Assembly: GCA_947396885.1 (NCBI GenBank)
Contig: OX377205.1
Span: 54,296,676 to 54,360,675 of the forward strand
DNA: 64,000 nucleotides
Direction of reading: 5' to 3'
From: Heligmosomoides polygyrus polygyrus
Lineage: Eukaryota; Nematoda; Chromadorea; Rhabditida; Heligmosomidae
Shown here: positions 58,561-64,000 of the stretch, piece by piece
Position numbering within the stretch: position 1 is the first letter of the stretch
Layout: each line of letters opens with the position of its first letter
Made by a program: the position numbers and the translations under genes
Notes under the pieces: model-generated
Seen by the model: only the letters and a program-made list of their open reading frames with translations
The model's database searches: none
What the model was told of the DNA's origin: nothing

Positions 58561-59001
58561 TGGTTATCCAGCCTCCGGTCATGACCCGAAATCAATTCAT
58601 TTCGCATATTTATCTGCGATAATCCACAAAGCACGGAACGACAAGCCGGGACATAACTCGGCACAAGAGAAAACACGTCGACAACACATAACGGGAGATC
58701 ACTGGGCACTGGAGTGGGGACGAATGCCGACGTGGTCGGTGAAAGGAGCCAAAGCACCACGTTGAAGGGACTGGCCGGGTCCCTGGGTGCAGCCGCGCGT
58801 CCCTCCATCGTCCGTGTGGCCGTCCTCGCGAGTCCTTTGTCCTCGCTTATATAGGTCCGTCCTCCTCAAGTCCGTGCCTGAAACAAGGAAGGGCAAGGGG
58901 CCGCGACGTTTCGAAAGATATGGCCAGCAAGGAGAGAGGCGACACGGGGGTAAAATGTCAAAACGGGACTCACCACACCGATTCCTCCTTCGTCCCTTAC
59001 A
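58561..59001 (-). repeat. 3' LTR (right boundary firm, left boundary tentative)
   Basis: On the minus strand the LTR starts TGTAAGGGACG immediately after the polypurine tract. It includes a TATA box and a possible AATGAA polyadenylation signal (58601-58596), and ends ...GGATAACCA at 58561, where a terminal CA would close a 441-bp LTR. The end is chosen by the TG...CA rule and the spacing from AATGAA; only the 5' LTR, outside this window, could confirm it. Confidence 0.65.
58846..58853 (-). promoter_or_regulatory. LTR TATA box
   Basis: TATATAAG on the minus strand, about 150 bp into the LTR, is a plausible U3 core promoter. In the 5' LTR it would drive the genomic RNA. Confidence 0.6.
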
Positions 59002-59013
59002 TCTCCCCCTTTT
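59002..59013 (-). promoter_or_regulatory. Polypurine tract (plus-strand primer site)
   Basis: AAAAGGGGGAGA on the minus strand sits directly before the TG that opens the LTR, and 20 bp after the stop codon of the third ORF. This is where RNase H leaves the primer for second-strand synthesis. Confidence 0.85.
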
Positions 59014-59033
59014 CGCGAAGTCCGTCCTCGGAC

Positions 59034-62000
59034 TTAATACTTGATTGCAGCGGGGATGGTCTTCTCGAAGAAGCCCATTTTGGCCAGAACTCTATTGAAG
59101 CGACACCATGCGATGATTTGTTCCCATAGTGGTATGACTTTGAACGACGAGAGGCATCCTATGACGAACATTCCTTCTCGAGCTCGGGATAGTGCGACGT
59201 TGAGGCGCTTGGGGTCTGCAAAAAACGAATGGTTGGCGTCTTTGTCGATATGAGTCCGTGTGGTACACACAATCACAATAGATTTTTCCGATCCCTGCGC
59301 GCTGTCGACCGTAGCGACGGCCACCTCGGTATCGCGCAGCAGAGCTTCACATAGATATTTTTGGTCGCGATTTTAGAAGGCACACTAGGACGCGCACCGC
59401 GTTTGCCTCGATGTCGTTGCTGTATGACCCAGTAACGGATCTAACTGCGTGACCTCTCACGTTCACAACTGCGAATGGAATCTCGGGATTCGTCAGTTTC
59501 ACACGCGACAGCAGATTTTGGCGTAATTCTACTGGTGTGCCGCACCGCAAAGCGTCGTCATAAAAGAACTTAGAATTGAGGCGCATGAGGCCCGCGTGCG
59601 GACGGTATACCGTCCGGATGGTGCAGACTGGAGCGTTGCCCCTGCGGTGGGCAACATCCAGCACCGACTGTGAGCAGAGAGCCACAGCCTTGGGGACGTT
59701 GTGGACGCCAACATACGGTGGTAATTGCTTACTATCACCCACGAGGGTGTAGCAAGCATACTGAAAGCGCGAGAGAAGTGCAATGAATGTGGCCTCTGGA
59801 ATCATTGATGCTTCATCTAAAAGCACCGCACTCCATTCCCGTGAGGGGCGACGCCAAAGGCCCTTGCGTATAGTTAAATTTATGGCGGAGGAAATTGTAC
59901 AGAGGAACACATTGGGTTTGTAGATTCGAATAAAGGCGCGGGTCAGCTTCTTAATACGTGTGGAGGCATAACGCTCCAGGATTAAAAGGCGCTTGTGTTC
60001 CCGCGTAGCGACTCCCTCTCCTCGCCAGTGAATACGAATTCCCTAAGGGCGTTACGATGTTCCGCAAACTCCTCAAACACTGCTAGATCATTTTTAGATA
60101 TAACTTCTCTATGGGTGCCTGGAAGGTTCTCCATGAGGGTAGCCATGTTAAAGGGTTCATTATGAGCGGTATCCTGCGAGAGTAGCTCGCTGACATAGCG
60201 CACAGGACGTTTGCTGTCCGAGTTAAGCTCTCCTATCTTTGCGCATATTACATCTAACGCGCTGTTTTGAACCGCGGCTATCAGCACGGTTTGACCCCTT
60301 TTCACCACTTCTTCGGCCTTGACTACCGTGCATAAAGAGACTTGCCGGCCCCGTATGCGCTGTCAATGATTAGGACAGGGCTCTGCCGATTGAACCAGTT
60401 TACGGCATTGACTTGGTCTGCGTTGAGCTCTACGTCGTTTCCTGAGACGTTGACAGTTATGGAGGTGCGCTCTTCTACCTGCTGGGCCAATATATCAGCG
60501 TCTCCTGCCAGTACTGCGCGAGCCGCCAGCCATGACGTCGTGTCCGGCTCGAAGGTGCTAGCCACACAGGATTGGCGCGCTCTTCGACGCTGCTGAGTGA
60601 AGTCCCGACCGCCATACGACGGTGTGGTGTGCTCAACATGTACGACCGAAACCTGGTGGAGTCCTTGAGGGGGAGTTCCGCAGTGACCCCGACTCTTGTG
60701 TCTCGCATGACTAGACGAATTATCCGGGCTTTAAGTATATCAGCCTGGTATGCTCCTTCAACGAAGCAACCTACCGCCCAACCCGATTTACTACTAACGG
60801 GGATTTGAAACTCCACTTTAGCCGGGAAAGCATTTATATCAAGGGAAGTCCAGATTACATTATGTAGTCGGTGGTCCGACGCTTCTGCGACGCATGCCGC
60901 TATGGTCCCACAGGCAGTGCTGTAGAGGGGCTCCAGGAAGTGCATGACCTCCTTAGGACGAGACTCAAATAATGTGAAATCCGTGAGCTTGACCTCGATT
61001 AAATCCTTATACGACTGCTCTACAAGTCGCATGACCTGGAACGGGAGGGGCGCTTGGGATGTACTGAATATCGGCTAGGAAAGCATATATTTCTGCTGAG
61101 TTGCCCTTAGGCGTACACGCGAAGCGCATGTAGTCAATCTGTCATGGTCTAAATAAGGCTACGATAAAGGAGTTATCGATGACTTGTTCATACTCCTTAG
61201 GATCGCGAAACCGATTTTTGTTTGCGGTGACCAAGTAACGGTGACCTTGCATGCACAATTTGAATGTGCCGTTTTGCCTGGAAACCACCCTGATGACGAA
61301 TCCAAGGGTATCCTTAAGTTCGCGATATACAAGGCCGAACTGAGCCACGCGCCATATGGTGGACTTCCGCGATAAAGTAGCTTCCTCCACGTTTGTGGCG
61401 GCTAACAGATAGGAGGTTTGGAACATTACAGTTACGGCGAGGGAATACACCCAGACTAGATCACCGATAATAAGGCTACGGAGGTCGACTCCTCTTTTAC
61501 CAGTACGAATATTGATGCCGAACTGGTCGATCTGGATGGTATGGAGGTCCCACCGGTCGGGGAAGGGAAGCTCGATATGAGCTGCTTCTAGTCGTGCCCC
61601 GGAACCATACAAGGTTTTGACCCTATATAAGACAGGTAGGATACCCTTGTAGCGTTTTAACCCTCTTACGTAGGTGTGCTGTTCCTGAAGAGAAGCCTGG
61701 TCTACTAGGGGCATAGTAGGCAGCTCCCCTTCGCTCCTCTTTATACTTATAATGTTGTCGTAACTATTAAAACGCCGAAAGTTTTCAATAGCCCTTGGGC
61801 CAACCGCTTCCAAAATGGGTACCTCGTGACCCACCGTAGGTAATGGCTCTCCAGGTGGGTGCAGGTGTAAGCCGCTGTACCCCGCAGCTGTTACTTTCTC
61901 ATAGTTGCGAACATCCAGGTCGGAGTGATAATACTCACATTCCTGAATCTGTACCCTGGGCTTGAAGAAGGGAGCCCATGGGTGGGATGAAAACTGCTCA

Positions 62001-62688: not shown

Positions 62689-62858
62689 GACATATTAGCG
62701 ATCTATGGCGGTAGGCGGTGAAATTGGAACTTGATATGAAGGGAAGATGCGTTTAAGTAATAGAGGGACAGATATCGCCGAAAATGGCGCTCGAGGGAAG
62801 CCGAGAATAGGAATTGTAGTCGTCGTGCAGCAAATAGAGAATGCGTCGTGGGCGCGAA

Positions 62859-62865
62859 CTGAAAA
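62859..62865 (-). promoter_or_regulatory. Candidate 3' splice site before the third ORF
   Basis: TTTTCAG on the minus strand, preceded by a T-rich stretch, fits the nematode splice-acceptor consensus. It lies between the pol stop and the third ORF start, about 170 nt before the first ATG, so it could serve cis-splicing from an upstream donor or spliced-leader addition to give a subgenomic helicase mRNA. Confidence 0.45.
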
Positions 62866-62910
62866 TTAAAGTAGTCGCGAAAGGGAAAAATGTGTGTAAG
62901 GTTCTGAAAG

Positions 62911-64000
62911 TTATTGACGATTTCGAGGACGGAGATTATAGTGATGCGATGGACTCCTTGAGGCTGTATCCGTAGGGGATGCTTTAGGTGCTTCCTCCCG
63001 TTGGTGGATGTAACCAGGGATATGCTCTTCAGGTAGTGCGTCTACGTAATCGTGCTTCTCCGGTACCGAAGAGAGGGTGGATGCTGGACCCGTGAGATCC
63101 ACGACCTTTTTTATCTGATTTAGGTGAACACGACGGGGCTGGGACTGCGGCGACATTATGCTTACAATAACCGCGTATGGATGGTCGACCTTCAGAACGC
63201 GAAATTGACCAATCCAGGGGAAGCATAATTTCCGTGCGAGCCCCGATTTGATGGTATAGTTGCGGAAAAACATCCGATCACCTTCGCAGATTGTAGAGGG
63301 GCGAGATTTCTGGTCGTACACGTGCTTCATAGACGCCTTATATGTTCTGGCGTGCTCTGCTGCTTGCTGCCACGCCAGTTGTAAAGCCGATACTAGTTGC
63401 GCTTTATAATCGTCCGTTTCCGAGGGGCCAGTGTTTTGAGGTCGGACTTCGGGCAATAGTATGCGATCTATGGTAAAAACAGGATCTCTACCAAACATTA
63501 AAAAGTATGGTGATTCACCTGTGGCTTCATTTATGGAGGTGTTGTAACAAAATGCTACGCAGGGTATAAATAAATTCCAATCCTCCTGTTTTATATTGAT
63601 AAATTTGGAGAGAATAGCTTGAAAAGTGCTGAAAGTTCTCTTCGTAGCGCCGTTTCTCATCGAATAATACGGAGTTGCAAAGCGGTGTTTGATGTGCAAA
63701 AGGTTGCAGAACTCCTGGTAAAAATGCGACGTAAAACTTGAAGCTTGATCGGAGACTAATTCAGTCATAGTGCCATATTTCAAGACGCATTCCGTCAGAA
63801 GTGCGTGGACGATCGCATTAGCCCTCGCGTCGGATAAGGGAACGGAAATTACGTACCGGGTGAACCAACAAACAATATTTAAAATGTATTTATTGCCGCG
63901 CTCCGCAGTTTTGAGTGGTCCGCATAAGTTCAGTCCTACTTTGGCGAACACTGCTTCGCTGTGCACGGGAATGAGGCGTTCGCGGAAATTTGGCGCATTT
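62911..64000 (-). CDS. pol C-terminus: integrase core and GPY/F-like module (partial, catalytic residues changed)
   Basis: The frame is open to the window edge, so the zinc-finger and all upstream pol domains are outside. The core is clearly Ty3/gypsy-type: GLNLCGPLKTAERGNKYIL, then VSDQASSFTSHFYQEF, then YYSMRNGATKRTFSTFQ and WNLFIPCVAFCYNTS, ESPYFLMFGRDP. The catalytic D-D-E should lie in the first three blocks. The first position is Asn (AAC), the second Asp is present, and the Glu is Lys (AAG); both changes are single G-to-A steps from GAC and GAG. Downstream GDRMFFRNY...PWIGQFRVLKVDHPYAV is a GPY/F-like targeting module, and the protein ends YNLRPRNRQ, a typical pol terminus. No frameshift or stop occurs in 1,090 bp. 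It would insert the cDNA into host chromosomes, but as it stands strand transfer should fail. Confidence 0.9.
   Translation of the reverse strand, partial: NAPNFRERLIPVHSEAVFAKVGLNLCGPLKTAERGNKYILNIVCWFTRYVISVPLSDARANAIVHALLTECVLKYGTMTELVSDQASSFTSHFYQEFCNLLHIKHRFATPYYSMRNGATKRTFSTFQAILSKFINIKQEDWNLFIPCVAFCYNTSINEATGESPYFLMFGRDPVFTIDRILLPEVRPQNTGPSETDDYKAQLVSALQLAWQQAAEHARTYKASMKHVYDQKSRPSTICEGDRMFFRNYTIKSGLARKLCFPWIGQFRVLKVDHPYAVIVSIMSPQSQPRRVHLNQIKKVVDLTGPASTLSSVPEKHDYVDALPEEHIPGYIHQREEAPKASPTDTASRSPSHHYNLRPRNRQ

Follow-up and report, generated by a model that had tools for sequence, protein, structure and literature searches.

A UPF1-type helicase as the third open reading frame of Ty3/gypsy-type retrotransposons in strongylid nematodes

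Helicases of superfamily 1 (SF1) have been described in insect non-long terminal repeat (non-LTR) retrotransposons, where TRAS and Jockey carry virus-derived SF1 helicase domains (PMC4686597, PMC5563155, PMC6338049). Silencing suppression has been proposed as their role, and a weak effect has been reported in a plant system (PMC6338049, PMC5563155, PMC4686597). Here, we analyse a 64,000-nucleotide stretch of the Heligmosomoides polygyrus polygyrus genome (assembly GCA_947396885.1, contig OX377205.1, positions 54,296,676 to 54,360,675; hereafter the window), whose last 5.45 kb are filled by the 3′ part of an LTR retrotransposon, on the minus strand, that carries a helicase gene. This element resembles the insect ones in its full SF1 helicase with all motifs and in the long retention of that helicase in a retroelement. 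The insect helicases, however, derive from virga-like RNA viruses and lie in open reading frames (ORFs) of long interspersed nuclear elements (LINEs), whereas the helicase described here is of UPF1 type and forms a separate ORF after the integrase in nematode LTR elements. The papers on insect helicases also mention that in Diptera and Hymenoptera there is fusion with proteins of LTR elements, as well as cucumovirus-like and pomovirus-like helicases near plant LTR elements (PMC4686597, PMC5563155, PMC6338049).

LTR retroelements with accessory ORFs are already known. In bdelloid rotifer LTR elements, ORF3 encodes an env, a GDSL esterase or a DEDDy exonuclease, and pol includes a dUTPase (PMC5408684). 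An enzymatic third ORF after pol is thus shared with our element, but the rotifer elements have no helicase ORF, the word appearing only in a reference title; moreover, the branches that split off first lack the rotifer ORF3s, some of which arose by repeated gains (PMC5408684). In our elements, a whole deep lineage has retained the helicase, and an envelope-like gene is present elsewhere in the element. Cer1 of C. elegans encodes an accessory protein, CERV, that is required for export of the genomic RNA, and cerv is expressed from spliced RNA with TTTCAG-type or TTGCAG-type acceptors (PMC10309623). Like our element, with its candidate TTTCAG acceptor, Cer1 is a nematode LTR element with an extra gene and such an acceptor, but it has no helicase, a word absent from the main text (PMC10309623). 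Hookworm Atlas virus and other belpaoviruses offer a further parallel, an intact-looking retrovirus-like element of a strongylid that encodes a viral fusion protein, but they are BEL/Pao elements with the order Gag-Pol-Env and a phlebovirus-type env, and the main text of the paper does not use the word helicase (PMC9094657). Mosquito Anakin, likewise an LTR element with a captured chuvirus-type glycoprotein, is a BEL/Pao element of insects for which the main text mentions no helicase (PMC7642597); in the present element, the glycoprotein lies between gag and protease. The word helicase is also absent from the main text of a 2026 study on strongylid LTR elements (PMC13195028). In the open-licence literature, covered through titles and the beginnings of abstracts, we found no LTR element with a UPF1-type helicase; Repbase lay outside this scope, and an overlooked description, or one confined to a database, is quite possible. 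Within the literature searched, a cellular-type UPF1-like helicase that is a core gene across a lineage, combined with an envelope-like gene between gag and protease, would be new, the unusual points being the type of helicase and the place of the envelope-like gene.

The best overall explanation of our data, to which we assign a probability of roughly 0.8, is a decayed, retrovirus-like strongylid element of Ty3/gypsy type with an integral, constrained UPF1-type helicase ORF. The whole element is about 13.1 kb long and spans window coordinate 58550 to about 71630, so that its 5′ part lies past the window end. Within the window, integrase, helicase, stop codon, inverted repeat, polypurine tract and LTR follow each other on the minus strand; this bears out the single-strand order of integrase, helicase, polypurine tract and LTR that had been proposed from the sequence in an earlier reading of the window (hereafter the original prediction). 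The features are as follows.

58546..58549, no strand: target-site duplication on the 3′ side, TTAG in element orientation; the identical 4 bp stand before the 5′ LTR
58550..59001, minus strand: 3′ LTR, about 452 bp, with a TG start and TATATAA at 58853-58847; paired with a 5′ LTR
59002..59013, minus strand: polypurine tract AAAAGGGGGAGA; a similar tract precedes the 3′ LTR in other copies
59018..59035, minus strand: short inverted repeat AAGTCCG-AGGA-CGGACTT, directly before the polypurine tract and overlapping the helicase stop
59034..62637, minus strand: ORF3, UPF1-type SF1 helicase, broken; intact as a 1243-aa frame in copies L028 and L029
59034-59372, 59347-60042, 59982-60362, 60323-60730, 60475-61074, 61142-62527 and 62458-62694, minus strand: helicase pieces
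62642..62649, minus strand: candidate 3′ splice site, TATTTCAG; the helicase ATG (62637-62635) follows after 4 nt
62911..63999, minus strand: integrase, the C-terminal part of pol, with the rve core at about 63903-63664; the frame continues past the window end

The integrase frame (63999-62911) matches Pfam rve (E = 2.3e-13), and the helicase pieces match AAA_12 (E = 7.7e-18 and 1.3e-9) and AAA_11 (E = 8.5e-5 and 0.0072, both under the cut-off). As predicted, the polypurine tract starts 20 nt past the helicase stop codon (59036-59034) and the LTR has its TG start and TATA motif. The predicted frame of about 1,200 codons exists unbroken, at 1243 aa, in other copies, but not in the window, where the helicase is split into seven pieces over three frames (62694-59034); this copy is therefore broken. 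Its 5′ LTR lies at G000:C1:54367866-54368305, about window coordinate 71190-71630, and its LTRs show 12 differences over 449 aligned sites, which together with the broken helicase identifies the window copy as an older, decayed insertion. The nearest named protein matches of one helicase piece come from Heligmosomoides polygyrus, at 89-95% identity over 8-23% of the query.

To see how the helicase is placed in other copies, we searched the genome with one helicase piece (187 residues) and scored the best 150 of 283 candidates. Identity is 95-99% in the top 20 matches, each of which spans at least residues 1-164 of the 187, and five matches fall within an open frame of 1243 aa. Among 16 loci picked for long helicase frames, 12 have pol just upstream on the same strand and one (L043) has gag and protease alone upstream within the fetched stretch. 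A search with pol, in which the 53 of 3232 candidates closest to the query were scored, gave 62 matches at 49 loci; at 43 of these loci a same-strand helicase match follows 2.4-6.5 kb downstream, and direct reading of 4.2-4.3 kb downstream revealed a helicase, whole or partly deleted, at five of the other six. The helicase is thus kept, at least partly, at 48 of the 49 closest pol loci, the single exception being L049, where it was not found in the 4.2-4.3 kb downstream of pol.

The LTRs give the same picture. When the best 40 of 209 candidates from an LTR search were scored, 26 of them formed 13 same-strand pairs, with starts 12.6-12.8 kb apart in nine, and in every one of the 13 a helicase match lies upstream of the 3′ LTR at a distance of no more than 1 kb; nine of the 14 unpaired matches also adjoin a helicase. 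Seen from the helicase, 22 of 33 matches of the window's own clade (clade A, below) are followed within 1 kb by a scored LTR, and direct reading added an LTR for three of the remaining 11 (L002, L003 and L024). The helicase is therefore an integral third ORF of the element and lies inside it, as the original prediction held. Helicase-free copies, which would have spoken against that prediction, were not seen among the LTR pairs or, L049 apart, among the closest pol loci, and the matches listed do not place the helicase mainly in host genes outside LTR pairs.

The expected paired LTRs with target-site duplications were found, but the duplication is 4 bp long (in all seven clade A pairs read, TTAG in the window copy) and not 5 bp. 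In six other copies, the paired LTRs differ at 0, 0, 1, 0, 1 and 4 of about 449 sites and, by this near-identity, the window's family has moved recently. A related family, L030, whose helicase is 66% identical, has a pair of 453-bp LTRs with 99.8% identity, their flanking 4 bp agreeing at three of four positions. The motif TGGTAGCAGCGAG, a putative tRNA primer site, stands at the end of all seven 5′ LTRs read and of the L030-family one. Two closely spaced LTR pairs (G000:C52:62201779-62204533 and G000:C13:67073462-67076723), with starts 2.3 and 2.8 kb apart, still have a helicase end beside the 3′ LTR and are therefore internally deleted copies.

The architecture extends well beyond the window's family. 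The 16 long-frame loci fall into two helicase clades: A, to which the window's family belongs, and B. The two share 19-25% identity over the aligned protein and are both internally diverse; a BLASTP comparison of L028 with L036 gives 26% identity over 916 columns (E = 1e-87). Protein searches scored about 7,990 candidates sharing most words with each query, so that absence from other taxa proves little. With the intact L028 frame as the query, strongylids (Oesophagostomum, Haemonchus, Ancylostoma, Nippostrongylus and Ostertagia) account for 10 of 36 matches, at 46-55% identity, and the non-strongylid matches, to UPF1, senataxin and others, are far weaker; with a clade B frame, 40 of 52 matches are strongylid. 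Five gene models (P0012, P0049, P0052, P0057 and P0066) combine reverse transcriptase (RT) or integrase domains with the helicase. A tree of 53 sequences places the element helicases together and separates them from the included outgroups, UPF1, SETX, DNA2 and others (support 100/100); clades A and B are supported at 100/100 and 99.9/100, and several lineages from the window's genome pair with lineages of other genera. Across 11 elements, with one element dropped, integrase identity tracks helicase identity (r = 0.95, with 0 of 10000 permutations as high), and it does so within clade B as well (r = 0.72; 91 of 10000 permutations). Taken together, the grouping in the tree, the lineages that span genera and the co-divergence with integrase fit a single, ancient gain of the helicase as the probable history, followed by descent with the element. 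Judged by these comparisons, the architecture belongs to an old lineage that has many families and occurs in many strongylids, not to one odd element.

To characterise the helicase itself, we used L028 and its relatives instead of the broken window copy. An alignment of 40 rows contains the complete SF1 motifs I-VI, and the protein has two RecA domains with a UPF1-like 1B domain and stalk, as expected of a UPF1-type SF1B enzyme; the best structural matches are UPF1 and IGHMBP2. The helicase is thus a UPF1-type SF1 enzyme, which supports the UPF1-like assignment made from its motifs. The N-terminal part gave no match to the UPF1-specific CH domain, which binds zinc and UPF2, although absence from the match lists does not exclude that domain. 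We considered and rejected two other identities. Against a virga-like viral helicase within a LINE ORF, as in insects, L028 reaches 27.2 bits with Viral_helicase1, just past the cut-off, versus 125.7 bits for AAA_12, and the host is an LTR element with integrase; for a Helitron with a Pif1 helicase and Rep, the Pfam scans returned no Pif1 or Rep family, and LTRs are present.

Three pairs of intact helicase frames give dN/dS (the ratio of nonsynonymous to synonymous rates) of 0.23, 0.11 and 0.10, which speaks against neutral drift; in two pairs with decayed copies among them, the ratio is 0.44 and 0.43. Between L028 and L030, the corresponding ratio of proportions (pN/pS) is 0.25, with synonymous change saturated, and that of pol is 0.13. 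By these ratios, the helicase is under purifying selection. The N-terminal region of about 140 residues evolves fast (dN 0.60 versus 0.18 for the core, L028-L030).

In the rest of the element, the domain order is Retrotrans_gag, zf-CCHC (under the cut-off), Asp_protease_2, RVT_1, RT_RNaseH_2, Integrase_H2C2 and rve. Together with the LTRs, the primer site and the polypurine tract, this order fits a Ty3/gypsy-type element (Metaviridae); gag also has a match, below its cut-off, to DUF1759, a Pao-type domain. In L017, which by coordinates continues into L010, ORF1 comprises gag, a zinc knuckle, a region of about 570 residues and the protease. Read by eye, this region starts like a signal peptide, is rich in cysteines, contains N-glycosylation sites and an RPKR site, and is hydrophobic over a C-terminal stretch. 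Its counterpart in L043 (48% identical to L017) hits Pfam Monjiviricetes_fusion (E = 1.6e-7, 30.2 bits versus a cut-off of 27) and is the sole copy above that cut-off; L017 (E = 0.0053) and the clade B copy L050 (E = 1.3e-4; 40% identical to L017) fall under it, and L021, whose frame is 95% identical to that of L017, and two L027 pieces gave no Monjiviricetes_fusion match at E up to 1. The region of L050 directly precedes the protease. The positions of the envelope-like glycoprotein, between the gag zinc knuckle and the protease, are as follows.

L017:116-1888, minus strand: envelope-like glycoprotein
L043:6282-7835, minus strand: envelope-like glycoprotein
L050:327-1802: envelope-like glycoprotein

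Pieced together from several copies, the element therefore reads LTR, gag, envelope-like glycoprotein, protease, RT, RNase H, integrase, helicase, polypurine tract, LTR. The original prediction placed the helicase in the env position, and positionally this is correct for a gypsy-type element; as a replacement of env it does not hold, because an envelope-like glycoprotein appears to be encoded between gag and protease in copies of both clades. We know of no other element with env between gag and protease. Between protease and RT, L010:5722-6816 (minus strand) has a weak, unconfirmed dUTPase-like signal (Pfam E = 0.044). A different glycoprotein occurs at L049 (L049:2047-4263, minus strand; G000:C60:62621338-62625600), 1-4 kb further on, in an other-strand element with a Phlebovirus_G2 match (E = 5.9e-73); this phlebovirus-type element is unrelated to the helicase element and perhaps akin to hookworm Atlas-type elements.

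How might the helicase be produced, and what might it do? TTTCAG stands at the same place in L028 as in the window, and within 50 nt of a candidate ATG also in L030, L034, L036 and L037; this proximity is found at 5 of 12 loci, versus 45 of the 1283 ATGs of those loci. Since cerv is spliced at TTTCAG-type acceptors, the TTTCAG near the ATG suggests that the helicase may be translated from its own spliced message. Such a message would be cis-spliced or spliced-leader (SL) trans-spliced and would start just past the TTTCAG acceptor. The protein would bind RNA partly via a small-beta-barrel region before the core, and would use ATP to travel along the element's polycistronic RNA of about 13 kb, stripping or remodelling bound proteins, so that the RNA could stay exportable, translatable and packageable despite host RNA surveillance.

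Could the order in the window still be a coincidence, with an LTR element inserted beside a host helicase gene, or having captured one once and recently? The helicase family is of cellular type, and 3 of the 16 sampled helicase loci (L031, L032 and L037) have no recognisable pol in the fetched stretch, as such a scenario would predict; L037 nevertheless retains the inverted repeat and polypurine tract. Yet this order is repeated across many families, on both sides of the deep split between the clades, the five gene models joining RT or integrase to the helicase come from other strongylids or H. polygyrus, 13 of 13 LTR pairs carry the helicase, and its divergence keeps step with that of integrase. 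Because the architecture recurs in this way, we consider chance insertion refuted and its probability very small. Besides the three loci lacking pol, several observations weigh against our best explanation. The 53 pol candidates scored were those nearest the query, among which more distant helicase-free elements could not appear; of the 14 unpaired LTR matches, five lack an adjoining helicase and may be solo LTRs or LTRs whose mates were not scored; and paired LTRs are known for clade A only, the single clade B 5′ stretch read having given none. The N-terminal region of the helicase has no firm fold match. Up to four ATGs were tried per locus and 7 of 12 loci have no TTTCAG, so that the splice evidence is suggestive, and an anti-silencing role, considered next, is argued from analogy.

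On balance we lean towards a helicase that would remodel the element's own RNA. At L010/L017, the stop of ORF1 falls where ORF2 opens in another frame, and the genomic RNA therefore has a very long part after its first stop. A long stretch after the first stop is a classic trigger of decay. The combination of a UPF1-type enzyme and an RNA of about 13 kb that, in the window's family, has a long post-stop tail suggests that the helicase may help this RNA to survive or to stay usable. A more pointed possibility, which we hold tentatively, is that the helicase acts as a suppressor or decoy against host surveillance, competing with UPF1 or MOV10-type helicases and shielding the RNA from nonsense-mediated decay or worm-specific small-RNA silencing. 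Its UPF1-type core and the long post-stop part of the L010/L017 RNA are consistent with this, and the fast N-terminal evolution would be expected of a contested surface, but a disordered end would evolve fast even without conflict, and a 2399-aa open frame contains one clade B-like pol match, so that an early stop is not universal among these elements. There are precedents in a retroviral element that acts against decay and in the need of Cer1 for CERV in RNA export (PMC10309623), and strongylid LTR elements are small-RNA targets (PMC13195028). Whether directed at nonsense-mediated decay or at 22G-type small-RNA silencing, such antagonism of surveillance is conceivable and no more probable than that. 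That the helicase aids reverse transcription or packaging, as an RNA helicase or chaperone that would clear structure and proteins from a very long template within the virus-like particle, seems unlikely to us: its retention at nearly all of the closest pol loci, its intact motifs, the purifying selection and the length of the element would fit, but in the window's family it is a separate ORF after pol, outside Gag-Pol, and therefore need not enter particles. Other long elements are not known to need a helicase of their own. Taken jointly, an undescribed ancient strongylid lineage with the order gag, env, protease, RT, integrase and helicase, whose helicase would antagonise host RNA surveillance and would be made from a spliced or SL trans-spliced message, is a doubtful proposition as a whole; remodelling of the element's own RNA remains the role we favour.

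Next to the polypurine tract, the inverted repeat AAGTCCG(N4)CGGACTT or near variants recurs a few nucleotides upstream in L030, L033, L038, L043 and others. It is present in 9 of the 16 long-frame helicase loci and 3 of the 6 pol loci read downstream, in very divergent families of both clades; its folding is no stronger than that of shuffled sequences. Elsewhere in the window, one repeat has three copies (26756-29631, 38373-39666 and 54891-58092) with frames that look non-LTR-retrotransposon-like by eye; one copy is on the opposite strand, and the third (54891-58092) is seemingly interrupted by another fragment. A second element is repeated at 40089-44226 and 51295-53816, with RT/endonuclease-like frames by eye and 71-90% identity in parts, and a large inverted repeat (32810-33756 / 34314-35261) has arms that are 94-97% complementary around a centre of about 0.56 kb.

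For strongylid genomics, the lineage may account for many gene models annotated as 'DNA2/NAM7 helicase'. The 2026 study of strongylid LTR elements removed repeat models matching non-transposon proteins (PMC13195028), and filters of this kind could lose elements such as these. Near-identical copies and many families make the purpose of the helicase directly testable. The lineage would offer a natural case of an RNA parasite with its own version of the type of helicase that hosts use to police RNA.

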